DNA from: Lachnospiraceae bacterium
Lineage (GTDB): Bacteria > Bacillota > Clostridia > Lachnospirales > Lachnospiraceae
Reading direction: 5' to 3'
Assembly: GCA_021200475.1 (NCBI GenBank)
Contig: JAJQGP010000094.1
Location: 18,691 to 82,690 of the forward strand
Length of the DNA: 64,000 nt
Part shown: one piece after another, positions 21,079-36,236 of the stretch
Layout: each line of letters opens with the position of its first letter
How positions within the stretch are numbered: the stretch's first letter is position 1
Program-made: the position numbers and the translations under genes
Notes under the pieces: generated by a model
The model's database searches: none
What the model saw: only the letters and a program-made list of their open reading frames with translations
Told to the model about the DNA's origin: nothing

Positions 21079-21242
21079 ATTTGTGATAGGATAAGATATC
21101 CGTGGGAAGGGGATGCTTTTTTTGTGTATTTGTGCGTGAAAAAATTAACAATCATAGAAATTCATACCCTTATCACTATCGCTGCGGAAGAGAACAACCA
21201 GTGATAACAAAATTACAATTGCAAAGAGAAAGGGGAACGTCT

Positions 21243-21674
21243 ATGCATCTGGTTCAGGATGAAAATGGTAATGCGGTTCCACATTCACACGAAAACGGAG
21301 AGCATACCCATACACATACCCATACGTATGAGCACTCCCATCCACACACGCATGAACATGGTCATGAAGATGAACACAATCATTCTCATGATCACGGGGA
21401 AGAACATTGTCATGTCCATGAGGGCGAGCATGCACATTGCGGCGCATGTGAAGCACATGCGCAGGAAGCTCCGGAAGGAGATAAAATGGTTGCACTGCTT
21501 GACTATATGCTCAAACACAATGAGCATCATGCAGCAGAGCTTGATCAGGTAGCCGGAAAGTTCCGCGAAGAAGGAAAAGAAGCGGCAGCAGAGCAGATCA
21601 AAAAAGCAGTAGATGAATTTCAAAAAGGAAACCTGTATTTAAAGCTTGCGTTGTCAATGGTACAGGAAGGCTAA
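21243..21674 (+). CDS. His-rich protein, putative nickel chaperone/storage protein of the CODH/ACS locus
   Basis: 143 aa; 23 His in the first ~73 residues (HTHTHTHTYEHSHPHTHEHGHEDEHNHSHDHGEEHCHVHEGEHAHCGAC) then a helical-looking tail; AAAGGGGAACG upstream of ATG; directly upstream of the CooT-like and cooC genes. Confidence 0.7.
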   Translation: MHLVQDENGNAVPHSHENGEHTHTHTHTYEHSHPHTHEHGHEDEHNHSHDHGEEHCHVHEGEHAHCGACEAHAQEAPEGDKMVALLDYMLKHNEHHAAELDQVAGKFREEGKEAAAEQIKKAVDEFQKGNLYLKLALSMVQEG

Positions 21675-21993: not shown

Positions 21994-22767
21994 ATGGCTC
22001 ATGTGATTGCGATAGCAGGAAAAGGCGGCGTTGGCAAAACAACGCTCGGCGGTTTGCTGATACAGACGATGTGCATGGAAGGGAAACGCCCGATCCTTGC
22101 AGTGGACGCCGATGCGAACTCAAACCTGAACGAAGTCCTTGGCGTCGATGTAGAGATGACGCTCGGAGATGTGCGCGAGACCGTACTCCACGATGCAGAC
22201 AAGCTGGACCGGAACATTCCTTCCGGTATGACAAAAGCGGATTATACAGAGATGATGCTTCAGCGCTGTCTTGCAGAGGATGACGATTTTGATCTTCTGG
22301 TGATGGGAAGATCCCAGGGGCAGGGTTGCTATTGTTACGTAAACGGTCTGTTGCAGGCGCAGCTGGCAAAGCTGATTCCGAATTATAAGTATGTGGTGGT
22401 AGACAATGAAGCGGGGATGGAGCACATCAGCCGTGGTATTTTACCAAAGGTGGATACGATGCTGCTCATCAGCGACTGCTCCAGGAGAGGAGTTCAGGCA
22501 ACCGAGCGTATTGCTGAGCTGGTGGAAGAGTGCCATCTGAATCCGAAAACAATCGGTCTGATCGTGAATCGTGCGCCGAACGGACAGTTAAATGCCGGTA
22601 CAAAGGAAGAGATTGAAAAGAGTGGGCTCCGCCTGCTTGGCGTTGTACCGCAGGATGAGCAGGTTTACGAATATGACTGCGAAGGCAGACCTACCTCTTC
22701 GCTTCCGGAGGACTCACCGGTGCGCCTTGCGCTCAATGAGATCCTGAAAACAATCAATCTGAAGTAA
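21994..22767 (+). CDS. cooC: CooC/AcsF-type nickel-insertion ATPase (1)
   Basis: GKGGVGKTT deviant Walker A, DADANSNLNEVLG, GQGCYCYVN CxC, VVDNEAGMEH. Confidence 0.93.
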   Translation: MAHVIAIAGKGGVGKTTLGGLLIQTMCMEGKRPILAVDADANSNLNEVLGVDVEMTLGDVRETVLHDADKLDRNIPSGMTKADYTEMMLQRCLAEDDDFDLLVMGRSQGQGCYCYVNGLLQAQLAKLIPNYKYVVVDNEAGMEHISRGILPKVDTMLLISDCSRRGVQATERIAELVEECHLNPKTIGLIVNRAPNGQLNAGTKEEIEKSGLRLLGVVPQDEQVYEYDCEGRPTSSLPEDSPVRLALNEILKTINLK

Positions 22768-22909: not shown

Positions 22910-24802
22910 ATGGGAGACTTTAAGCTGACAACAGTTGAGGAGTTTGAAGCGGCTACAAACCGGCTCCTCGAAACAGGAGCAAAGGTGGGCGCAGATGCCT
23001 ATCAGTACCGTGTAAAAAATCAGACGCCGCATTGTAAGTTTGGCGAGCAGGGTATCTGCTGCCGTATCTGTACCATGGGGCCATGCCGGATTACTCCGAA
23101 AGCGCCGCGTGGAATCTGCGGCTGCGACGCGCACGGAATTGTGGGTCGTAACTATCTGAGATTTACCGCCGGCGGAGCGGCGACACACTCAGATCATGGC
23201 CGTGAGATCTGCCATACCCTTTACTGCACCTCACCGGATGGCAACTATAAGGTAAAGGACCCGGAGAAGCTGATCCGTATCGCGAAGGAATGGGGCGTTG
23301 AGACAGAGGGCAAGGATATCTATGATCTGGCTCATGAGATGGCTGTTCTCGCTTTGGGTGAGTATGGAAAAGTATTTGGACACCAGAACTTCATTAAAAG
23401 AGCTCCGAAGCATACGCAGGAGATTTGGGCCAGAGAAGAGATTGAGCCGCGCGCGATTGACCGTGAGGTTTCCTGTTCCATGCATATGACCCATATGGGA
23501 TGCTCTTCCAAACCGGAGGCCCTGATTCGTCAGTCTCTGCGTGCCGGCCTGGCGGATGGCTGGGGCGGTTCTATGGCTGGTACAGAGTTCTCCGATGTCC
23601 TGTTTGGTACGCCGAAGCCGATCGACACCGAGGCGAACCTTGGTGTTATGGTGGAAGAAAATGTCAACATCGTGGTTCATGGACATGATCCGTCGCTTTC
23701 TGAGATGATCTGTGAATATGCGGATGACCCTGAGATGATCGCTTACGCGAAGGAGATGGGTGCGAAGGGCATCACGGTTTCCGGTGTCTGCTGTACATCC
23801 AATGAAGTAGCGATGCGCCGTGGTATCCCGATGGCTGGTAACTTCCTGCAGCAGGAAAATGTCATTCTGACCGGTGCCTGCGAGGCGATTGTTGTCGACG
23901 TACAGTGTATTTTCCCGGCAATCGGACCGCTGGCAAAGTGCTTTCATACCAAATTTGTGACGACATCTCCGATCGCACAGATGCCGGAGAGTGATTATAT
24001 CCGTTTCTCCCCGGAGAATGCCGGTGAGAATGCGAAAGCGATCGTAAAGATGGCGATTGAGAACTTTAAGAACCGGAAACCGGAGCTGGTACATATCCCG
24101 CAGCTGAAGCAAAAAGCGACCGTTGGTTATTCCGTTGAAGCCATTGTGAAAACACTGGATACCGTGACCAACTCTCAGGTAGACGAGACAGGCACGACAA
24201 AGCCGCTTGTTGACTGCATCAAATCCGGCGTAATCCGCGGTGCAGTAGCCATGGTAGGCTGCAACAACCCGAAGGTACGTCCGGATACCGCTCACATTGC
24301 GCTGATGAAGAAGCTGATTGAGAATGATATTATTATCGTAGCGTCAGGCTGCTCCGCACAGGCGGCTGCGAAGGCCGGTCTGATGGATAAGCGCGCGAAG
24401 GATCTCTGCGGCGCCGGTCTGAAGAGGGTCTGTGAGCTGGCTGACATTCCGCCGGTGCTTCACATGGGTTCCTGTGTAGATATCAGCCGTATGATGATTC
24501 TTGTTTCTGAGCTGGCAAAGGATTCCGGGTGGAACATTTCTCAGCTGCCGGTAGTCGGCTGCGCACCGGAGTGGATGTCTGAAAAGGCTGTTTCCATCGG
24601 CAACTATGTGGTAGCGACCGGTCTTGATACCTTCCTTGGCGTAGACCCGTATGCAAGCGGATCCTCAGAGGTAGAAGGTCTGCTGCAGGGCGGCATCCGT
24701 GACTGGGTAGAGGCTTGCTATACCGTCGAGACAGACATCGATAAGATGGTTGACAAGATGATCGAACGGATCGAAGAGAAGAGAACCGCATTGGGGATCT
24801 GA
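22910..24802 (+). CDS. acsA: anaerobic carbon monoxide dehydrogenase catalytic subunit
   Basis: CxxxxxGICCRICTMGPCR cluster B/D region, VHGHDP, SGVCCTSNE, DVQCIFP, VGCNNPK, SGCSAQA, MGSCVDISR, CAPEWMSEKA. Confidence 0.97.
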   Translation: MGDFKLTTVEEFEAATNRLLETGAKVGADAYQYRVKNQTPHCKFGEQGICCRICTMGPCRITPKAPRGICGCDAHGIVGRNYLRFTAGGAATHSDHGREICHTLYCTSPDGNYKVKDPEKLIRIAKEWGVETEGKDIYDLAHEMAVLALGEYGKVFGHQNFIKRAPKHTQEIWAREEIEPRAIDREVSCSMHMTHMGCSSKPEALIRQSLRAGLADGWGGSMAGTEFSDVLFGTPKPIDTEANLGVMVEENVNIVVHGHDPSLSEMICEYADDPEMIAYAKEMGAKGITVSGVCCTSNEVAMRRGIPMAGNFLQQENVILTGACEAIVVDVQCIFPAIGPLAKCFHTKFVTTSPIAQMPESDYIRFSPENAGENAKAIVKMAIENFKNRKPELVHIPQLKQKATVGYSVEAIVKTLDTVTNSQVDETGTTKPLVDCIKSGVIRGAVAMVGCNNPKVRPDTAHIALMKKLIENDIIIVASGCSAQAAAKAGLMDKRAKDLCGAGLKRVCELADIPPVLHMGSCVDISRMMILVSELAKDSGWNISQLPVVGCAPEWMSEKAVSIGNYVVATGLDTFLGVDPYASGSSEVEGLLQGGIRDWVEACYTVETDIDKMVDKMIERIEEKRTALGI

Positions 24803-24937: not shown

Positions 24938-25696
24938 ATGAAGATTGCAATTACTGGAAAAGGTGGGGTTGGTAAGACAACTTTTGCTGCGACGCTGGCG
25001 CGGTTGTATGCGGATGAAGGGCGCTCTGTGCTGGCCGCGGACGCGGACCCGGATGCAAATCTCGGCTTGGCACTCGGATTTGATGAGGACGATCTGGCAG
25101 AAATCGTCCCCATCACAAAAATGCGAAAACTGGTTGAGGAACGCACCGGTGCCGATGAGTTCAATAAAATTTTTAAAATCAATCCAAAGGTAGACGATAT
25201 TCCGGACAAATACGCAAAAAAATGCAATGGTGTGAAGCTTCTGGTTCTGGGAACGGTAGAGACTGGCGGCAGTGGCTGTGTCTGTCCGGAGCATGTAATA
25301 CTCAAAAGAATTATCAATCATCTCATGCTTCGCTCAAACGATGTGGTGATTCTGGACATGGAAGCTGGACTGGAGCACCTGGGCCGCGGTACCACAAGCG
25401 GTATGGACGCATTTATTGTTGTGATCGAACCCGGCGCGAGAAGTGTACAGACTTATCGCAATGTAAAACGTCTTGCGGATGACCTCGGTGTAAAACAGGT
25501 TTATGTGGTCGCGAATAAGGTCCGCGATGAGAAGGATGAGGAATTTGTCCGCTCGAAGATACCGGCTGAGGATCTTCTTGGCGTGATTCATTACAATACG
25601 GAAATCATTGACGCAGACCGCAATGGTTCCTCCCCTTATGATTACAGCCAAAGTGCTGTCCAGGAAATTCGCTCTATTAAGGAAAAGCTGGAATAA
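24938..25696 (+). CDS. cooC: CooC-type nickel-insertion ATPase (2)
   Basis: ITGKGGVGKTTFAATLARL, DADPDANLG, GSGCVCPEH CxC, LDMEAGLEHLGRGT. Confidence 0.94.
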   Translation: MKIAITGKGGVGKTTFAATLARLYADEGRSVLAADADPDANLGLALGFDEDDLAEIVPITKMRKLVEERTGADEFNKIFKINPKVDDIPDKYAKKCNGVKLLVLGTVETGGSGCVCPEHVILKRIINHLMLRSNDVVILDMEAGLEHLGRGTTSGMDAFIVVIEPGARSVQTYRNVKRLADDLGVKQVYVVANKVRDEKDEEFVRSKIPAEDLLGVIHYNTEIIDADRNGSSPYDYSQSAVQEIRSIKEKLE

Positions 25697-25763: not shown

Positions 25764-25799
25764 AATAGTATACAAAAAACTGGAAAAGAGGCGAATGAA

Positions 25800-26492
25800 A
25801 TGAGTGAATCTGCATTACCGAAACTGGAAGTGGCGGACATCATTCAGGCATTGGATGGGGTCTGCAATTCAAAGGTCGATACGACCGGTACGACGAAGCC
25901 ATTGTTAGAATGTGTGACTTCCGGCGTACTGCGCGGCGCTGCCGTGCTTCTTGGAACGGATGGGTCTGAAGTCCGTGATACGGGCGAGTATGTAGCTCTT
26001 TTCAAAAAGCTGATTGCCAATGATATCGTAATACTGGCGATCGGTTATCCGGTACAGGTGGCGGCGGACGCCGGACTTCTGAACCCGGATGCGAAGGAAC
26101 TGTGTGGCGCAGGCCTGAAGCGTGTCTGTGAACTGGCGGAGATTCCTCCGGTACTGCCGCTTGGCGGTCTGGAGAATGTGGGCAATGTCGTGACGATCGC
26201 GACTGCACTTTGCAATGATTCCGGCCTGACAGTACCGCAATTGCCGGTAGTTGGCTGTGATCCTGCCGGTGTAACAGCTCAGGCCGTGGAGCTTGGCAAT
26301 ACATTTGCAGGCTTGGGTGTTGATACCTTTATCGGCATCCTGCCATATGAGGGTTCCCTGGAAGATGTTATTGCTGCAAGCGGATTGAAAAACGGCGCGG
26401 ATGCAACACAGACGGTTTCTGCAGATCTGGATGAGCTCGCAGATGCTCTGATTGCGGATATCGAGAAAAAACGCGCCGCGATTGAAATCTGA
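25800..26492 (+). CDS. stand-alone CODH C-terminal-domain paralog lacking C-cluster ligands
   Basis: Aligns with the last ~226 residues of AcsA in this window (VDxTGTTKPL, KKLIxNDI, LCGAGLKRVCELAxIPPVL, QLPVVGCxP, DTFxG); about half identical by eye over ~165 positions; AAAAGAGGCG RBS. Confidence 0.92.
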   Translation: MSESALPKLEVADIIQALDGVCNSKVDTTGTTKPLLECVTSGVLRGAAVLLGTDGSEVRDTGEYVALFKKLIANDIVILAIGYPVQVAADAGLLNPDAKELCGAGLKRVCELAEIPPVLPLGGLENVGNVVTIATALCNDSGLTVPQLPVVGCDPAGVTAQAVELGNTFAGLGVDTFIGILPYEGSLEDVIAASGLKNGADATQTVSADLDELADALIADIEKKRAAIEI

Positions 26493-26568: not shown

Positions 26569-28695
26569 GTGACATTATTTGATGTTATTTTTAAAGGAAA
26601 TGACGCAGTATATGGTCTTACAGAGCAGGCGATTGATAATGCAATCGCACAGTACGGCGAAGATAAGCCGGTAGCTTTCCCGGACACCGCATACAGCCTT
26701 CCGTGCTATTATGCTGTGACTGGCACAAAGGTCGGTAATCTCGGAGATCTGAAAACAGCGCTCGGCGTCGTAAAAACTCTGATGACCAGAAATCCGAGAA
26801 TGAACGATGCGTTCATGTCCGGTGTTGCGACAGCACTCTGCGCAGAGTTTATTGAAGTACTGAAGTATATTGACGGTGCAGCTCCGTACTCCGAGCCTTG
26901 CTATGGTCATCTTGCAGATGCAGTGATCCGTGAGCTGGGTGTTCCGCTTGTTACGGGCGATATCCCGGGCGTTGCTGTTATTCTTGGCGCAGCTCCGACT
27001 GCAGAGGAAGGCGTTGCTCTGGTTAAGAGCTATCAGGCACAGGGCATCCTGGTTACACTGGTTGGCGGTATCATTGATCAGTGTGAAGAGCTCGGCTACA
27101 AGACCGGTGCAAATGTACGTGTAATTCCGCTTGGCAAAGACGTCACCGCAGTCATTCATGTAGTTTCTGTTGCTATCCGTGCGGCGCTCATTTTTGGTAA
27201 TATCACCCCGGGCGATGCAGCAGGCCTGATGAAATACACGATGGAGCGTGTACCGGCATTCGTAAACGCATTCGCTCCGCTGGATGAAGTGATTGTTGCA
27301 GCCGGCGCAGGGGCGATTGCCCTCGGTTTCCCGGTTATTACAAACGAAGAGACCTTCCGTGTACCGAAGAGCCTGATTGTACAGAAGGATGTGTCCAAGT
27401 TCAACGCGACCTCTCTGGAAGCGCGTGACATTAAGCTTAAGATTACAGATATCGATATCCCGGTTGCATTTGCGTCCGCATTCGAGGGCGAGATCATCCG
27501 CCGCGGCGATATGCAGGTAGAATTCGACGGCTCCAGAGTCGACTGCTTTGAGCTGGTTCACAACAAAGAGCTCTCCGAAGTGGAAGACCACAAGATCGAA
27601 GTCATCGGACCGGATCTCGATGAGTTCGAGGTGGGCAGCAAGCACTCCATCGGTTACATAGTAGAAGTTGCCGGCAAGAGCATGCAGGCAGACTTTGAGC
27701 CGGTATTCGAGCGTAAGTTCCACTCTTATCTGAACTGCATCGAAGGTCTGATGCACACCGGTCAGCGTGACATGATCCGTATCCGTGTCAGCAAAGATAC
27801 GTTTAATGCGGGCTTCCGTTTGAAACACATCGGCGAAGTTCTTTACGCGAAAGTAAAGAGCGAGTTCGCAGCTGTTGTAGACAAATGCCAGGTGAAGGTC
27901 ATCACCGATCCGGAGATGTGTACAAAGCTTCGTCATGAGCTGGCGATCCCGATGTTTGACAAACGTGATGAACGTCTGACGACCCTGACAGATGAGGGCG
28001 TTGACGTTTACTATAGCTGCATTATGTGCCAGGCATTCTCTCCGAGCCACGTCTGTGTGGTTACCCCGGAGCGTCTTGGACTGTGCGGCGCTGTTTCATG
28101 GCTGGACGCGAAAGCGACCAACGAGCTGGATCCGCAGGGTCCCTGCCAGGTCATCACCAAAGAGAAAGTCATCGACGAGCGCATCGGTGAGTATGAGGAC
28201 GTCAATGAGGCAGTCCGCAAGTTCTCACAGGGTGCACTGGAAGACGTATCTCTGTATTCCATCATCGAAAAGCCGATGACAAGCTGCGGCTGCTTTGAGT
28301 GTATTTGCGGTATTGAGCCGCTCTCCAACGGAGTCTGCATCGCGAACCGTGAGTACGCAGGTATGACCCCGATCGGCATGACCTTCTCCGAGCTGGCTTC
28401 CATGACCGGCGGCGGTGTGCAGACCCCGGGCTTCATGGGACATGGCAAGCACTTCATCTCTTCTAAAAAGTTTATGAAGGCAGAAGGCGGCATCGCCCGT
28501 ATCGTGTGGATGCCGAAAGACCTCAAAGACCAGGTAGCAGACCGCCTGAACGAGTCAGCGAAAGAGCTGTACGGAATCGATAACTTCGTCGATATGATTG
28601 CGGATGAGACCGTCGTTACCGAAGATCCGGAAGCACTGCTTGCGTTCCTGACCGAAAAAGGCCACCCGGCACTTGAGATGGAACCAATGATGTAA
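26569..28695 (+). CDS. acsB: CO-methylating acetyl-CoA synthase
   Basis: GTG start after AGGAGG; SCIMCQAFSPSHVCVVTPERLGLCGAVSWLDAKA and CGCFECICG cluster A ligands. Confidence 0.96.
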   Translation: MTLFDVIFKGNDAVYGLTEQAIDNAIAQYGEDKPVAFPDTAYSLPCYYAVTGTKVGNLGDLKTALGVVKTLMTRNPRMNDAFMSGVATALCAEFIEVLKYIDGAAPYSEPCYGHLADAVIRELGVPLVTGDIPGVAVILGAAPTAEEGVALVKSYQAQGILVTLVGGIIDQCEELGYKTGANVRVIPLGKDVTAVIHVVSVAIRAALIFGNITPGDAAGLMKYTMERVPAFVNAFAPLDEVIVAAGAGAIALGFPVITNEETFRVPKSLIVQKDVSKFNATSLEARDIKLKITDIDIPVAFASAFEGEIIRRGDMQVEFDGSRVDCFELVHNKELSEVEDHKIEVIGPDLDEFEVGSKHSIGYIVEVAGKSMQADFEPVFERKFHSYLNCIEGLMHTGQRDMIRIRVSKDTFNAGFRLKHIGEVLYAKVKSEFAAVVDKCQVKVITDPEMCTKLRHELAIPMFDKRDERLTTLTDEGVDVYYSCIMCQAFSPSHVCVVTPERLGLCGAVSWLDAKATNELDPQGPCQVITKEKVIDERIGEYEDVNEAVRKFSQGALEDVSLYSIIEKPMTSCGCFECICGIEPLSNGVCIANREYAGMTPIGMTFSELASMTGGGVQTPGFMGHGKHFISSKKFMKAEGGIARIVWMPKDLKDQVADRLNESAKELYGIDNFVDMIADETVVTEDPEALLAFLTEKGHPALEMEPMM

Positions 28696-28987: not shown

Positions 28988-29929
28988 ATGCCGTTTACTG
29001 CAAAATCAGGAAAATTCAATGCGAAAATTAATACCGTTGAAGTCGGCACCGGCGATAAGGCAATCAAGCTTGGCGGCGAGAACGTTTTCCCATTCTATAC
29101 CTTTGATGATGCGATTGAGAATGCACCGAAGGTTGGTATTGAGATTACGGACGGCGGCATGGAAGCTGAGCCTGACTGTGTACAGAAGCTCTATGAAGGC
29201 TGCACGACGGTCGTTGACATGGCAAAAAAAGCTGTGACATTTGACGGAGTTGATTTTCTCAGCATTCGTTTGGAAGGCGGAGATCCGAACGGAAAGAACA
29301 AATCTACGGAGGAACTGATTCAGATTGTCAGGGATGTCGCTGACGCTGTCAATGTTCCGCTTGTTGTTTGCGGCTGCAAGAACGTAGAAAAAGACGCTGA
29401 GCTTCTGGATAAGGCTGCAGCTGCGCTGGAAGGAAAGAATGCTGTAATTCTGGCAGCAAAGGAAGAAAACTACAAGACCATCGGTGCTTCTGCCGGCCTT
29501 GCTTACAAGCAGGTTGTGGGCGCTGAATCCGCTGTAGATATCAACCTTGCAAAACAGCTGAACGTACTGCTCACACAGCTTGGCGTTGACAGTAAGACCA
29601 TTGTAATGAACGCTGGTACCGCTGCAGTCGGATATGGTTTCGACTACGTGATATCTACACTGGACCGTGTAAAAGCGGCTGCACTGTCACAGGGTGACAC
29701 AACGCTGCAGATGCCTATCATTACTCCTGTTGCTTCTGAAACATGGACGGTAAAAGAGTCCACTGCTACGGAAGAAGATATGCCTGCATGGGGCAATCTG
29801 GAAGAGCGCGGGATTGACATGGAAGTAGAGACTGCCGCAGCAGTTCTCGCTGCCGGCTCAGACGCTGTGATTCTGAAACATCCGGAATCTGTCAGAGCAA
29901 TCAAGACCATGATTTCAGAGTTGATTTAA
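28988..29929 (+). CDS. acsD: corrinoid iron-sulfur protein small subunit
   Basis: GGENVFPFYTFDDAIENAPKVGIEITD; GGDPNGKNKS; between acsB and acsC. Confidence 0.93.
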   Translation: MPFTAKSGKFNAKINTVEVGTGDKAIKLGGENVFPFYTFDDAIENAPKVGIEITDGGMEAEPDCVQKLYEGCTTVVDMAKKAVTFDGVDFLSIRLEGGDPNGKNKSTEELIQIVRDVADAVNVPLVVCGCKNVEKDAELLDKAAAALEGKNAVILAAKEENYKTIGASAGLAYKQVVGAESAVDINLAKQLNVLLTQLGVDSKTIVMNAGTAAVGYGFDYVISTLDRVKAAALSQGDTTLQMPIITPVASETWTVKESTATEEDMPAWGNLEERGIDMEVETAAAVLAAGSDAVILKHPESVRAIKTMISELI

Positions 29930-29959: not shown

Positions 29960-31303
29960 ATGGCATTGAAAGGCTTGGATATTTTTAAATTATCACCGAA
30001 GAAAAACTGTAAAGAGTGCGGCAGCCCGACCTGTATGGCTTTCTCAATGAAAGTGGCACAGGGTGCGGTTTCCATTGATAAATGTCCCTATTTTTCTGAG
30101 GACGCAAAAGCTTCTCTGAATGAGGCGACTGCTCCGCCAATGAAGACCATCAAGGTCGGAACCGGTGACAATGAGTATTCTCTCGGCGGAGAGACTGTTC
30201 TGTTCCGCCATGAGAAAACTTTCGTAAGCAGAACACGTTACGCAGTCACTGTATGCAGCTGCATGGATGACGCGGCGATTGATGCGAAGCTGGCTGAAAT
30301 TCAGTCCGTAGACTATGAGCGTATCGGTGAGCGTATGTTTACAGAAATGATTTATGTAAACTATGCGGAAGCGGCTGGCAAAGACAAGTATCTGGATCTG
30401 GTTAAGAAAGCAGCGGCTGTTGACCGTGTGCTCATTCTTGGCTGTGAAGATCCGGACGTTGCGGCTGAGGCCCTTGCCCTGGTAAAGGATAAAAAGCCGG
30501 TTCTGAACGGTGCAAATGCATCCAACTATGAAGCAATGAATAAAGTCGCGACCGAAGCTGGTGTCACTCTTGGTGTTCAGGGCGCGGATATTGACGAGCT
30601 TTATGATACGCTGGCAGCTCTTGAGAAGCTTGGAAATAAGAATCTGATCTTTGACTGCGGCGTCAATTCCGTTAAAGAAGCATACAAGATTGCGGTTGAA
30701 TTCCGTAAGGCGGCAATCAAAGACAGCAACCGTACCTGCGGTTATCCGTCGATTGTGCGGCTCGATCGCTTGAGCCAGGGAGATAAGCATCTGCAGGCTG
30801 CTCTCTTATCTCTGTTCACGATGAAGTATGGTTCGATTATCGTTCTTGACCAGATGACCTATGCAGAAGCAAACCCGGTATATGGTCTCAGACAGAACCT
30901 CTTCACCGATCCGCAGAAGCCAATGAAGGTTGAGCCGGGCATCTATCCGCTTAACGGCGCAGATGAGAATTCGGTATGTCTGACTACGGTAGACTTTGCG
31001 CTGACCTACTTCCTGGTATCCGGTGAGCTGGAGCGTTCCGGCGTACCATGCAACCTCATCATCAACGATGCAGGCGGACTTTCCGTACTGACTTCCTGGG
31101 CGGCAGGAAAGTTCTCAGCGGGAACGATCGCAAAGTTCTTTGCAGAGCAGGATATTGAAGGAAAAGTGAAGTCCAGAAAGCTGGTTATTCCGGGCAAGGT
31201 TGCTGTATTAAAGGGCGAGCTTGAGGCGAAGCTTCCGGGATGGGAGATCATCATTGCTCCGAGAGAGGCTGTTCAGCTTGTGAAGTTTATGAAAGAACTG
31301 TAA
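29960..31303 (+). CDS. acsC: corrinoid iron-sulfur protein large subunit
   Basis: CKECGSPTCMAFSMKVAQGAVSIDKCPYFS 4Fe-4S motif; C-terminal cobalamin-binding region. Confidence 0.94.
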   Translation: MALKGLDIFKLSPKKNCKECGSPTCMAFSMKVAQGAVSIDKCPYFSEDAKASLNEATAPPMKTIKVGTGDNEYSLGGETVLFRHEKTFVSRTRYAVTVCSCMDDAAIDAKLAEIQSVDYERIGERMFTEMIYVNYAEAAGKDKYLDLVKKAAAVDRVLILGCEDPDVAAEALALVKDKKPVLNGANASNYEAMNKVATEAGVTLGVQGADIDELYDTLAALEKLGNKNLIFDCGVNSVKEAYKIAVEFRKAAIKDSNRTCGYPSIVRLDRLSQGDKHLQAALLSLFTMKYGSIIVLDQMTYAEANPVYGLRQNLFTDPQKPMKVEPGIYPLNGADENSVCLTTVDFALTYFLVSGELERSGVPCNLIINDAGGLSVLTSWAAGKFSAGTIAKFFAEQDIEGKVKSRKLVIPGKVAVLKGELEAKLPGWEIIIAPREAVQLVKFMKEL

Positions 31304-31348: not shown

Positions 31349-32134
31349 ATGGCAAAATTTGTAACGATTGGTGAGAGACTTTCCACCACTGCTCCTGCAG
31401 TCAACAAAGCGTTTACTGAGAGAGACCCGGAGCCGATTCTGAAAAGAGCAAAGCAGCAGCTCGATGCCGGCGCTGTTTATCTTGATGTAAACATCGGACC
31501 TGCTGAGGCAGATGGTGAGGATCTGATGAAATGGGCGGTACAGCTCCTTCAGAGCAACTTTGACAATGTTCCGCTGGCGCTGGATACCTCCAACAAGAAG
31601 GCAATTGAGGCAGGTATCTCTGTTTACAACCGTTCTAAGGGAAAACCGATTGTAAACTCTGCGGATGCTTCCGGAAGAATCGAAAATATCGATCTTGCAG
31701 CAGCAAACGACGCGATCGTGATTGCTCTTTGCAACGGCGAAGGCATTGCAAAAGACAATGATGAGCGTATGGGTTATTGCCAGATGCTTCTTGAGAGAGG
31801 CATGGAACTGGGTATGGAGCCGACCAATATGTGGTTTGATCCGCTCTTCCTGGTCGTAAAGGGGATGCAGGACAAGCAGATGGAGATCCTTGAGTTTATC
31901 AAGATGCTCTCTGATATGGGTCTGAATTCTACCGGTGGCCTTTCCAATAACTCTAACGGTATGCCGAAGCACATTCGTCCGATCATGGATTCCGCACTCG
32001 TAGCAATGGCTATGATGCAGGGCCTTACCTCCGCGATCGTGAACCCGAATGACCTTCGTCTGATGGAAACGATTAAATCCTGTGATGTATTTAAGAGCAA
32101 TACTCTGTATGCGGATTCCTATCTGGAGATCTGA
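31349..32134 (+). CDS. acsE: methyltetrahydrofolate:corrinoid/iron-sulfur protein methyltransferase
   Basis: GAVYLDVNIGPAEADGEDLMKW, LDTSN, NSADASG, GGLSNNSNG pterin-binding motifs. Confidence 0.94.
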   Translation: MAKFVTIGERLSTTAPAVNKAFTERDPEPILKRAKQQLDAGAVYLDVNIGPAEADGEDLMKWAVQLLQSNFDNVPLALDTSNKKAIEAGISVYNRSKGKPIVNSADASGRIENIDLAAANDAIVIALCNGEGIAKDNDERMGYCQMLLERGMELGMEPTNMWFDPLFLVVKGMQDKQMEILEFIKMLSDMGLNSTGGLSNNSNGMPKHIRPIMDSALVAMAMMQGLTSAIVNPNDLRLMETIKSCDVFKSNTLYADSYLEI

Positions 32135-32535: not shown

Positions 32536-32557
32536 ACACATAATGGGAGAAACGATT

Positions 32558-34489
32558 ATGTTTAAAGTGACTTTTAAGTTTGAACATGGGCAGGATGTCG
32601 AAGGCTTTGCTTTAGCGGGAGAAAGCCTTCTGGATGTGGCAAAGAAGATGAATGTTGCCATTGATGCGCCATGCAATGGAAATGCAGCTTGCGGAAAATG
32701 CAGAGTAAAATTGATCGGAGGAGAACTGGATACCAAGAAGACCATGCATATCTCCGATGAGGAATTTGCGCAGGGATGGAGGTTAGCCTGCGTGAGCAAA
32801 ATCAGTGCGGACGTAGAGGTACTTGTGCCAGACATTGCGTCAGCGTACCGCAGTCGGATGAAAGTTGCGGATCTGAGTTCGGCGGAAGAATTACAGATAT
32901 TTGAAAAGACGAAAGCGGATATTTCGAATGCCGGAATCAAATTTGAAAATGACTTTAAAGTGATAAATCTGACAATGGAGGAGCCTTCGCTGGATGATAC
33001 CATGCCAGACAATGAACGGCTGGTGTGGGCTGTTGAGACAGCCTGTGGAGTGCCGAAGGCGAAGCTTTCTTTTGCTGTATTGCAGAAGTTGGCAGAAACC
33101 CTGCGAAAATCAGCGTTTAATGTGAAGTGTATCGTAACAGATGGAGCGGAGGATGAAGTATACGTACTTGATTTGCTTCCGGAAAATGAAGACGCAAAGG
33201 TCTGTGGGATAGCCATTGATATTGGTACGACAACCGTTTCTTCAGTGCTGATCAACATGCTTTCCGGTGAAATTCTCGCAAAGGGTTCTGCCGGGAATGG
33301 TCAGATCCGCTATGGGGCGGACGTGATTAACCGTATTATCGAACAGCAGAAGGAAGGCGGGCGCAAAAAGCTTCAGAATGCGATTGTCAAAGAAACTCTG
33401 AATCCAATGATAAAAGAAATGTGCGCTTCCATTGGAATTCCGCCGCAGCAGATTTATCGTGCCTGCATCGCCGGAAATACGACCATGAATCATCTGCTCC
33501 TTGGTGTAGATGCGGATCCGGTTCGTATGGAACCGTTTATCCCAACCTTCTTTGAGACAGATTCGGTTCAGGCGTGTGATCTGGGATTGAATCTGTATCC
33601 GCATGCATCTGTTTTGATTTCCCCAAACATAGGAAGCTATGTCGGTGGGGATATCACAGCCGGTACACTTGCAAGCACGATCTGGAATAAAGAAGAAATG
33701 TCCCTGTTTATTGACCTTGGTACGAATGGCGAGCTTGTCTTTGGGAATTCGGACTTCATGATGAGCTGCGCCTGCTCTGCAGGCCCCGCGTTTGAGGGCG
33801 GCGATATCAGCTGCGGAATGCGAGCGACTGACGGTGCAATCGAGGCCTGTGTGATAGATAAGGATACCATGGAACCCACGTTTACGATTGTCGGAGATGA
33901 GGGACAAAAGCCGGTGGGACTTTGCGGCTCCGGCATCATTGATGTCATCAGTGAGCTGTACCGCTGCGGGATCATCAGTCCGAAAGGGAAATTCATCCGC
34001 GAAGGCGACCGCGTTCGTCATGATCAGTATGGGATGGGCAGCTTTGTGCTGGCCTATAAAGAGGACGCTGCATCTGTGAAAGATATTGAGATCACAGAAG
34101 TCGATATCGACAGTTTTATCCGTGCAAAAGGCGCGATTTTTTCCGCTATTCGCGTGATGCTGCAGTCACTGGACTTTGATGTGTCCATGATTGACCATGT
34201 TTATGTGGCCGGAGGCATCGGCAGCGGCATTAATATGCGCAACGCTGTGTCCATTGGTATGTTTCCGGATATTGAGATGGACAAATTTACCTATATTGGC
34301 AACTCCTCTCTTTCCGGAGCGTATGCGATCCTGCTTTCAAAAGAAGCTGAAGCAAAGGTATCAGAGGTAGCTCATAACATGACTTATCTGGAACTCAGCA
34401 ACGAACCAACCTACATGGATGAGTTTGTGGCAAGCTGCTTCCTTCCGCATACAGACGCAGGATTGTTTCCGTCTGTGATATTAAAATAA
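32558..34489 (+). CDS. acsV: RACo-type ATP-dependent corrinoid protein reductive activator (AcsV-like, 2Fe-2S + DUF4445)
   Basis: CNGNAACGKCRVKL ferredoxin motif; IAIDIGTTTVSSVL, DLGTNGELVFGN, CSAGPAFEGGDISCGMRA. Confidence 0.9.
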   Translation: MFKVTFKFEHGQDVEGFALAGESLLDVAKKMNVAIDAPCNGNAACGKCRVKLIGGELDTKKTMHISDEEFAQGWRLACVSKISADVEVLVPDIASAYRSRMKVADLSSAEELQIFEKTKADISNAGIKFENDFKVINLTMEEPSLDDTMPDNERLVWAVETACGVPKAKLSFAVLQKLAETLRKSAFNVKCIVTDGAEDEVYVLDLLPENEDAKVCGIAIDIGTTTVSSVLINMLSGEILAKGSAGNGQIRYGADVINRIIEQQKEGGRKKLQNAIVKETLNPMIKEMCASIGIPPQQIYRACIAGNTTMNHLLLGVDADPVRMEPFIPTFFETDSVQACDLGLNLYPHASVLISPNIGSYVGGDITAGTLASTIWNKEEMSLFIDLGTNGELVFGNSDFMMSCACSAGPAFEGGDISCGMRATDGAIEACVIDKDTMEPTFTIVGDEGQKPVGLCGSGIIDVISELYRCGIISPKGKFIREGDRVRHDQYGMGSFVLAYKEDAASVKDIEITEVDIDSFIRAKGAIFSAIRVMLQSLDFDVSMIDHVYVAGGIGSGINMRNAVSIGMFPDIEMDKFTYIGNSSLSGAYAILLSKEAEAKVSEVAHNMTYLELSNEPTYMDEFVASCFLPHTDAGLFPSVILK

Positions 34490-34647: not shown

Positions 34648-35469
34648 TCACAATCCTCTGCTTTTCAGAACCCGATGCTCTAGTACAGAGAATACGCATC
34701 GATCAATGAGAATTCCAATTACGATAATGACCAGCATCACGGCAGTTACCTGGTTGATATCCGCCATATCGCGTCCGGTCATCAGGGAATAGCCCAGGCC
34801 GACGTAAGAGGACATCACCTCACCGGACATCAGTGCTCTCCATGCAAAGGACCAGGATTGGCGCAATCCCGCCAGAAAGCCGGGCAGAGCTGCCGGGAAA
34901 ATGACATCCTTATACATCTGGAGCGGACTCGCGCCCATGGTTGCCGCCGCCCGCTTGTAGATGGGAGGAATGGAGGCAATCGCGTTTTCGATTGCCAGCG
35001 CCACACTGAAGGTAGAACCGATCACAACTACAAAGAGAACAGCGGATTCCTTCAGGCCGAACCACAGAATTGCAAACGGCACCCAGCAGACGCTTGGCAG
35101 CGACTGAAATCCATTCAGCAAAGGCTTCATACAGCGGTTTAAAAATGCTGACGCAGAGATCAGCAATCCAAGCACGGTACCGATCAGGAGAGAAATCAAA
35201 AAACCGATCAGGACTCTCCTCAGGCTATAGATCACGGCCTGAGAGAGCGTCCCTTTCGCAATCAGTTTTTCAAGGCTCTGAAGGACTCCAAGAGGGGAGG
35301 GCATCGCGTAGGATTTCCACCACCCAAGCGTACCCGTGCCAACAAAATAGATTACCTGCCACAGGAGGATGAGCAGAAGATAAAAGCAAAGGCAGGAAAG
35401 AATTTTTCCCGGCTTATTCTTACTGGTCATATTCTTCTTTTGCAAGCTTTTCCACCTCCTTCTCAACAC
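34648..35469 (-). CDS. ABC transporter permease, NitT/TauT/SsuC type
   Basis: Membrane protein; MGASPLQMYKDVIFPAALPGFLAGLRQSWSFAWRALMSGE EAA-loop. Confidence 0.9.
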   Translation of the reverse strand: MLRRRWKSLQKKNMTSKNKPGKILSCLCFYLLLILLWQVIYFVGTGTLGWWKSYAMPSPLGVLQSLEKLIAKGTLSQAVIYSLRRVLIGFLISLLIGTVLGLLISASAFLNRCMKPLLNGFQSLPSVCWVPFAILWFGLKESAVLFVVVIGSTFSVALAIENAIASIPPIYKRAAATMGASPLQMYKDVIFPAALPGFLAGLRQSWSFAWRALMSGEVMSSYVGLGYSLMTGRDMADINQVTAVMLVIIVIGILIDRCVFSVLEHRVLKSRGL

Positions 35470-36190
35470 TGCTTAAAATCTTATGGCGGGCATTTAAAAA
35501 TTCCTGGGAGTCGATCTGGCGCGGACGCGGAAGGTCGACGGTATAGATATCCTTGATGCATCCCGGATTATCCGAAAGAATGACAATTCGATCCGCGAGA
35601 AACACTGCTTCCTCCACACTGTGCGTGACAAAAAGAATCGTTTTTTTTGTCTCCTCCCAGATCTGTTCCAGATCCGCACGCAGTTTATTTGTCGTCTGCT
35701 TGTCCAGTGCGGAAAAAGGCTCGTCCATTAAAAGAATCGGACTGTTCAGGCACAGAGCCCTGGCCAGTGCGGTCCTCTGTTTCATTCCACCGGAAATCTC
35801 ATGAATCCGATAATTGCGAAATTCCCAGAGACGCACCATTTTCAGATAATGCTCTGCGCGGCGGTTCTGTTCCTCCTTTGCCACGCCGGCGAGCTTCATC
35901 CCGAATTTTACATTATCCATCACATTCAGCCATGGATAGAGCGCGTGTTCCTGAAACATCATAACCCGGTCTGCGCCAGCTCCGGTAATTGCTTTTCCAT
36001 TGATAAACAGATCACCGGAAGAGGGCGTATCAAGTCCGGCGACAATATTCAGCAGGGTCGACTTTCCGCAGCCGGACGGCCCCACAATACATACAAATTC
36101 CCCGTCTTCGACCGTCAGAGAGATATCCTTCAGTGTTTCCCTTACGGAATTATCAAAAGAGCGGGAGATATGTTTTAATTCTAATGACAT
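35420..36190 (-). CDS. ABC transporter ATP-binding protein, NitT/TauT/SsuB type
   Basis: GPSGCGKSTLLNIVAGLD, ISGGMKQRTALARAL, LLMDEPFSALD. Confidence 0.93.
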   Translation of the reverse strand: MSLELKHISRSFDNSVRETLKDISLTVEDGEFVCIVGPSGCGKSTLLNIVAGLDTPSSGDLFINGKAITGAGADRVMMFQEHALYPWLNVMDNVKFGMKLAGVAKEEQNRRAEHYLKMVRLWEFRNYRIHEISGGMKQRTALARALCLNSPILLMDEPFSALDKQTTNKLRADLEQIWEETKKTILFVTHSVEEAVFLADRIVILSDNPGCIKDIYTVDLPRPRQIDSQEFLNARHKILSSVEKEVEKLAKEEYDQ

Positions 36191-36236
36191 TTTGGGTTCC
36201 TCTTCTTCCTGTTTTCTGTGTACAGCCAATCATGGA

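Follow-up and report, generated by a model that had tools for sequence, protein, structure and literature searches.

A conserved stand-alone Rossmann-fold-2 domain of Ni-CODH, without catalytic residues, in Lachnospiraceae

The CODH/ACS locus of a Lachnospiraceae bacterium encodes, one gene before acsB, a protein whose extent is exactly Rossmann fold 2 of CODH. We found it in a stretch of 64,000 nucleotides of contig JAJQGP010000094.1 (hereafter the window) and call it the pseudo-domain. A first-pass annotation of the sequence had proposed an intact, non-catalytic pseudoenzyme. Our analysis supports an intact, selected, non-catalytic protein derived from CODH: it is under selection, forms a single clade on a long stem, and new residues have become fixed in the loops that once held the cluster. 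As to function, we tentatively favor a neofunctionalized accessory protein of CODH/ACS, most likely one that docks on AcsB through a loop and helix (alphaA) and holds or shields ACS.

The pseudo-domain ORF starts with ATG and encodes 230 aa without an internal stop. The end-to-end alignment with the C-terminal part of AcsA seen in the first pass was reproduced by BLASTP: residues 1-230 match residues 399-630 of the window's AcsA with 104/232 identities (45%, E 9e-68). The corresponding Rossmann fold 2 of acsA lies at about 24104-24799. Prismane is the sole family in a Pfam search, matching residues 27-186 to profile positions 345-486 of 513 (82.6 bits, cut-off 27). The NCBIfam Ni-CODH model TIGR01702 aligns over its last third only (positions 417-618) with 91.1 bits against an equivalog cut-off of 478, and the pseudo-domain falls outside that family both on score and on length (full length is about 620 aa). 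Relative to Ni-CODH AcsA/CooS (TIGR01702, Prismane), homology spans the whole of Rossmann fold 2. Missing are Rossmann fold 1, the N-terminal domain with the B- and D-clusters (the ORF begins at the equivalent of AcsA residue 399), the catalytic Lys and the C-cluster Cys, of which most orthologues lack all three; the cluster-side loops are rebuilt.

An AlphaFold model from a 42-row alignment (pLDDT 82, pTM 0.83) has alternating helices and strands. Its best Foldseek match is C. autoethanogenum CODH (6ytt_B, TMq 0.81, E 2e-14), whose class is the closest solved CODH by PDB sequence and by fold. Segments of at least 3 residues with pLDDT <50 occur only at 1-4, 24-26 and 28-33, the latter two in the loop before alphaA.

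The ribosome binding site called in the first pass is conserved: GAGGCG stands just 5' of the ATG in 28/28 orthologues, while the remaining spacer sequence diverges. The promoter called with it was not recovered, since a sigma-70 scan found no site on the + strand between cooC2 and the ORF, which makes co-transcription with the acs genes likelier. Codon adaptation of the pseudo-domain gene (0.59) is near that of the CooC genes (0.57) and below that of acsE (0.73), which weakly favors an accessory role; the signal is weak because acsD has a similar value.

Table 1. Features of the acs cluster and of the pseudo-domain gene (positions in the window unless another locus is named)
Feature	Position	Strand	Basis or remark
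cooC1-type maturation ATPase	21994..22767	+	CbiA/MinD-type P-loop matches, synteny
acsA, intact CODH catalytic subunit	22910..24802	+	TIGR01702 614 bits
cooC2/AcsF-type maturation ATPase, directly upstream of the pseudo-domain gene	24938..25696	+	Profile matches, synteny
Shine-Dalgarno-like GAGGCGA	25788..25794	+	6-12 nt before the ATG of the pseudo-domain gene
Stand-alone CODH Rossmann-fold-2 pseudo-domain gene	25800..26492	+	ORF, AcsA identity, orthologues, fold match
Loop plus helix alphaA, residues 23-42 (helix 35-40 in model)	25866..25925	+	Probable equivalent of the class-2 CODH ACS-docking element
Former Cys446 loop, G52-T53-D54-G55-S56	25953..25967	+	Sequence and alignment
Former Cys476 loop, G82-Y83-P84	26043..26051	+	Tyr83 invariant, 30/30
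Former Cys526 loop, PLGGLEN, residues 120-126	26157..26177	+	Sequence comparison
Former Lys563 loop, DPAGVTAQ, residues 154-161	26259..26282	+	Catalytic Lys replaced by invariant Gln161
acsB (ACS), GTG start	26569..28695	+	PF18537/PF03598/PF19436
AcsB A1 domain	26569-27483	+	End-to-end match to C. autoethanogenum ACS A1-sized chain 6yua_A
acsD, corrinoid protein small subunit	28988..29929	+	PF03599
acsC, corrinoid protein large subunit	29960..31303	+	PF03599 + PF04060
acsE, methyltransferase	31349..32134	+	PF00809
RACo-type corrinoid activator (acsV)	32543..34489	+	PF14574/PF17651
Pseudo-domain relic, decayed fragment	L136 about 1848-2018 (G551:C57)		After murI

The maturation roles of the two CooC proteins are assumed from the family. 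Just 5' of cooC1 lies a gene for a small His-rich protein (21240-21674) that matches no Pfam family and may bind nickel as a chaperone or a store. An ABC transporter permease and ATPase (34648-36229, - strand) are convergent with the acs cluster.

Read directly from the alignment, AcsA VGC(451)NN becomes LGT(53)DG in the pseudo-domain, SGC(481)SA becomes IGY(83)PV, MGSC(522)VD becomes LGGL(124)EN and K559 becomes Q161. We take these sites to be the equivalents of Cys446, Cys476, Cys526 and Lys563 of Ch CODH-II. The window's AcsA itself retains the C-cluster ligands. Replacement of the ligands and of the Lys, claimed in the first pass, stands for the window, but loss of Cys446 is not universal. 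Residue 53 is Thr in the window and Gly or Cys in some orthologues, the Cys occurring in two early-branching sequences (L055, L057), possibly an intermediate state of ligand loss.

Identity to the AcsA family is uneven along the protein. It reaches 70% in the loop and alphaA (23-42), 90% in the helix plus strand at 101-119 and 98% in the strand at 148-153, against 24% in the Cys446 loop, 20% in the Cys476 loop, 26% in the Lys563 loop and 13% in the Cys526 loop and helix start (120-131). Among positions conserved in both the pseudo-domain and AcsA families, differently fixed ones are concentrated no more than 4 residues from a lost ligand (19/24 versus 21/87 elsewhere, Fisher p 1.4e-6). The rebuilt loops are 82-95% conserved among the first set of orthologues, and residues 118-127 are 100% identical between the window and an orthologue from a second genus. 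Between genera, the rebuilt side (104-175) keeps 80-100% identity and the loop plus alphaA 70%. PPVLPLGGLE, GY83, GC153D and Q161 are invariant in 30 sequences; 106 residues are invariant across two genera, and Y83, G123, L124, E125, D154 and Q161 are new invariant residues of the pseudo-domain. The rebuilt loops are thus conserved and not free to vary, and what was the active-site side now forms a new surface under constraint.

Gene conversion from acsA was considered for the kept segments and rejected: third-base identity over 101-119 is 0.50 to the genome's own acsA and 0.51 to acsA of other genomes. A metal cluster of the pseudo-domain's own was likewise rejected, since the only invariant Cys are Cys38, 110 and 153, all common to AcsA. 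Segment 101-119 is not the gas-gate helix alphaB. By its position, alphaB follows the Cys526 loop; its equivalent is residues 128-141 in the model, within the rebuilt side.

We collected 30 full-length open orthologues from at least two Lachnospiraceae genera. The dN/dS comparison across related genomes proposed in the first pass gave pairwise NG86 values of 0.022-0.070, indicating strong purifying selection, with cooC2 and acsD in a like range. The view that the gene is not simply decaying is upheld by these values and by the open orthologues. All orthologues form one clade on a long stem (1.35 changes per site; median end branch 0.05). In a tree rooted on other CODHs, the clade falls within Lachnospiraceae AcsA, with L118 as sister (support 88/63), and only 2% of bootstrap trees make AcsA one clade that excludes the pseudo-domain. 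The tree shows a single origin within Lachnospiraceae. Its shape points to duplication of the 3' end of a Lachnospiraceae acsA, then a burst of change, then constraint.

Within the genus, the pseudo-domain is present in 24/47 genomes (one partial), and 39 genomes have a CODH match of any kind. The GTDB contig collection yielded 27 pseudo-domain loci, all in MAGs of Lachnospiraceae or Clostridiales/Eubacteriales; several of these bear the label uncultured Marvinbryantia. Of the genus members with CODH but no pseudo-domain, 13 have cooC2 and acsB as neighbors 26-69 bp apart; the absence there is clean and not the product of decay. Absence from close relatives, named in the first pass as a possible refutation, is therefore half true. 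Wider searches covered 392 genomes of the order, 397 of the family and 392 of the class. Outside the carriers they gave full-length CODHs only, apart from contig-end pieces, a few weak partial matches and a relic in a second genus (g288). No pseudo-domain was found in IMG/VR.

The order cooC2-pseudo-domain-acsB holds in 27 loci, the window included; in locus L045 and the partial locus of G021 the contig ends after cooC2 and the pseudo-domain. The question raised in the first pass, whether such proteins always sit next to acsB, is answered yes for these 27 loci and no for g288, where two intact orthologues (71% identity) are unlinked to acs genes and adjoin genes identified by eye as MATE and TraX-like. 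Of the two genomes, G768 carries acsA-cooC2-acsB on a contig other than that of the pseudo-domain, and G771 has acsC-E-V where a contig ends. G551 (94% complete), a further genome of g288, keeps acsD-C-E-V, has no detectable acsA or acsB and retains the pseudo-domain only as a decayed remnant in which SGLTVPQFPVVGCDAAGVSAQAVELG is fused to a fragment of the C terminus. In this single case decay goes along with the loss of acsA and acsB, provided that the assembly is complete in this respect. The position between cooC2 and acsB, together with the relic in G551, supports a link of the pseudo-domain to CODH/ACS.

Two further arrangements of acs genes were seen. Loci L156 and L158 (G551 and G767, 94-95% complete) hold acsD-acsC-acsE-acsV with a metF-like gene upstream, and acsA, cooC and acsB were not found in these genomes, leaving a corrinoid branch without CODH/ACS. 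In another Lachnospiraceae genus, L122 (G318) is a second acsA locus with no acsB or cooC relatives detected nearby.

In C. autoethanogenum CODH, a loop plus helix is the docking site of class-2 ACS (PMC11474084). Judged from sequence order and the predicted helix at 35-40, residues 23-42 of the pseudo-domain are probably the equivalent element. The docking reading is favored because this element has stayed 70% AcsA-like, against 13-26% in the four cluster loops. The duplicated 3' end of acsA would have become a free-standing Rossmann fold 2 with no capacity for a C-cluster. The kept loop and alphaA, used by AcsA to hold ACS A1, would dock the pseudo-domain on AcsB, and the docked protein would present its new, strongly conserved surface at the former cluster site. 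Made near CooC2 and AcsB, it may hold or shield ACS when ACS is off AcsA, for example during nickel loading of the A-cluster or during release and re-docking of CODH and ACS. We infer that it is expressed, binds AcsB A1 and has a role in maturation or docking control. Among the roles floated in the first pass (scaffold or gas-channel partner, maturation platform, CO/redox regulation), the evidence is more in favor of a protein that would dock on ACS or modulate it. The unlinked g288 copies, the common-type A1 of the window and the nearly unchanged pseudo-domain across A1 allotypes speak against docking. The main function could instead sit on the rebuilt side, since 104-175 is better conserved between genera than the loop and alphaA.

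The A1 domain of AcsB varies among carriers. AcsB was split at residue 305 for separate A1 and A2-A3 trees. A1 is a highly diverged allotype in 15/26 carriers. All fixed AcsB differences between two carrier groups are in A1 (51/51), whereas A2-A3 trees mix these two groups; of the differences between rabbit-gut carriers and non-carriers, 32/35 are in A1. The diverged A1 stems measure 0.33 and 0.35; in A2-A3 the stem is 0.04 for one group, and the other is not a separate clade. The rabbit-gut carriers have a second diverged A1 (stem 0.35 versus 0.04). Neither allotype was seen in non-carriers of the genus or in close genera with one acsB, and A1 is not diverged in the window, L055, L057 or G768 (first 88 aa). 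The diverged A1 (L034, L036-L039, L053, L046-L052, L054, L056) moves independently of A2-A3, as a swapped cassette would. A second acsB copy in carriers was considered as its source; none was found in the genus. Tandem duplicated acsB occurs in two other Lachnospiraceae genera (L120 5495-10006; L123 5601-10113), with strongly diverged copies, in L123 most of all in A1.

Between the two A1 allotype groups the pseudo-domain has one fixed difference, so tight interface co-evolution is not seen, and strict co-evolution with A1 is not supported. The association of carriage with A1 divergence stems from two A1 shifts and is no more than suggestive; the divergence may reflect recombination unrelated to the pseudo-domain. 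A bolder version of the docking reading, which we consider unlikely, is a replay of the proposed origin of A1: a cluster-stripped Rossmann fold 2 beside acsB would act in trans as a separable docking or gas-gate module replacing AcsA on ACS, with A1 diverging in two carrier lineages.

The strongest rival, in our judgment somewhat unlikely, is a regulator that binds a small molecule in the emptied C-cluster crevice and acts on CODH/ACS by signaling or modulation. This crevice lies at the C-terminal ends of the strands, the usual ligand site of Rossmann folds; candidates include CoA, acetyl-CoA, a corrinoid or a nucleotide. Such a sensor would suit the rebuilt side, which is best conserved across genera and carries the new invariant residues, and the unlinked g288 copies fit a soluble regulator. 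However, no nucleotide-binding family was recognized by Pfam (Prismane only), and retention of the docking element is left unexplained. A structural subunit of the CODH core, bound to AcsA as the unrelated methanogen epsilon subunit is bound to CODH alpha, has a precedent in that single-Rossmann-fold partner (PMC11474084) and in the pseudo-domain's own descent from AcsA. We regard it as improbable: Pfam and NCBIfam report no epsilon-subunit homology, the rebuilt side is the one that once faced the rest of AcsA, carrier AcsA has only 8 near-fixed changes relative to non-carriers, and codon adaptation is below that of acsE. We give as little credence to a maturation platform, a mimic of CooC clients that recruits CooC2 to AcsA or AcsB. 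The gene is directly 3' of cooC2 whenever linked and has CooC-like codon adaptation, but the g288 copies are not linked to cooC2, and most non-carriers hold the same two CooC genes without a pseudo-domain. An unselected duplicate heading to decay would suit the patchy presence (24/47) and the one relic, but can hardly be credited against dN/dS of 0.02-0.07, 30 intact full-length orthologues, the conserved RBS and 106 invariant residues in two genera.

ACS A1 is likewise a Rossmann-type module, and the authors of PMC11474084 suggest that it could stem from duplication of CODH Rossmann fold 2; A1 of the window's AcsB matches Rossmann fold 2 of a methanogen CODH by sequence (9c0q, E 1e-6). The pseudo-domain is such a Rossmann fold 2 duplicate, one gene before acsB. 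It differs from A1, a helical bundle plus Rossmann fold fused to A2-A3, in being a separate gene of recent origin for a stand-alone 230-aa protein, and it has no helical bundle and no Pfam CODH_A_N; a profile-profile comparison with A1 was not significant (hhalign probability 1.6%). The methanogen epsilon subunit, a single Rossmann fold on CODH alpha that buries the D-cluster (PMC11474084), is similarly a small single-Rossmann-fold protein of the CODH/ACS system, of different origin; no such family match was found in Pfam or NCBIfam. Nor does NCBIfam give a hydroxylamine reductase profile match, as a hybrid cluster protein would. Short or ligand-depleted CODH relatives are known, namely mini-CooS and Ni-CODH groups with incomplete C-clusters (PMC8776680, PMC6344411). 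Unlike the pseudo-domain, mini-CooS of Thermosinus carboxydivorans keeps a complete metal-cluster motif, and the incomplete-ligand groups were defined on proteins of >=550 aa.

The first-pass annotation knew of no described function for such a protein. In the openly readable literature on mini-CooS, on the genomic neighborhoods of CODH and on CODHs that are truncated or reduced to the C terminus, we found no published family covering it. Large CODH surveys dropped matches <550 aa (PMC6344411) or <400 aa (PMC8776680), or those whose ligands are substituted; such filters would account for its absence from the literature. Surveys that discard short or ligand-less CODH sequences cannot see the pseudo-domain, and the finding exposes this blind spot.

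CODH/ACS is considered to be among the oldest enzymes of carbon fixation. The pseudo-domain bears on open questions about how this complex retains CO, how ACS detaches from CODH and rejoins it, and how A1 came about. In the gut acetogenic Lachnospiraceae that carry it, it looks like a new accessory protein of CODH/ACS and not a broken gene. A conserved dead CODH domain that some acetogens have added and close relatives dispense with is a natural entry point for studying docking or maturation; it may also show how a CODH domain becomes an ACS partner.
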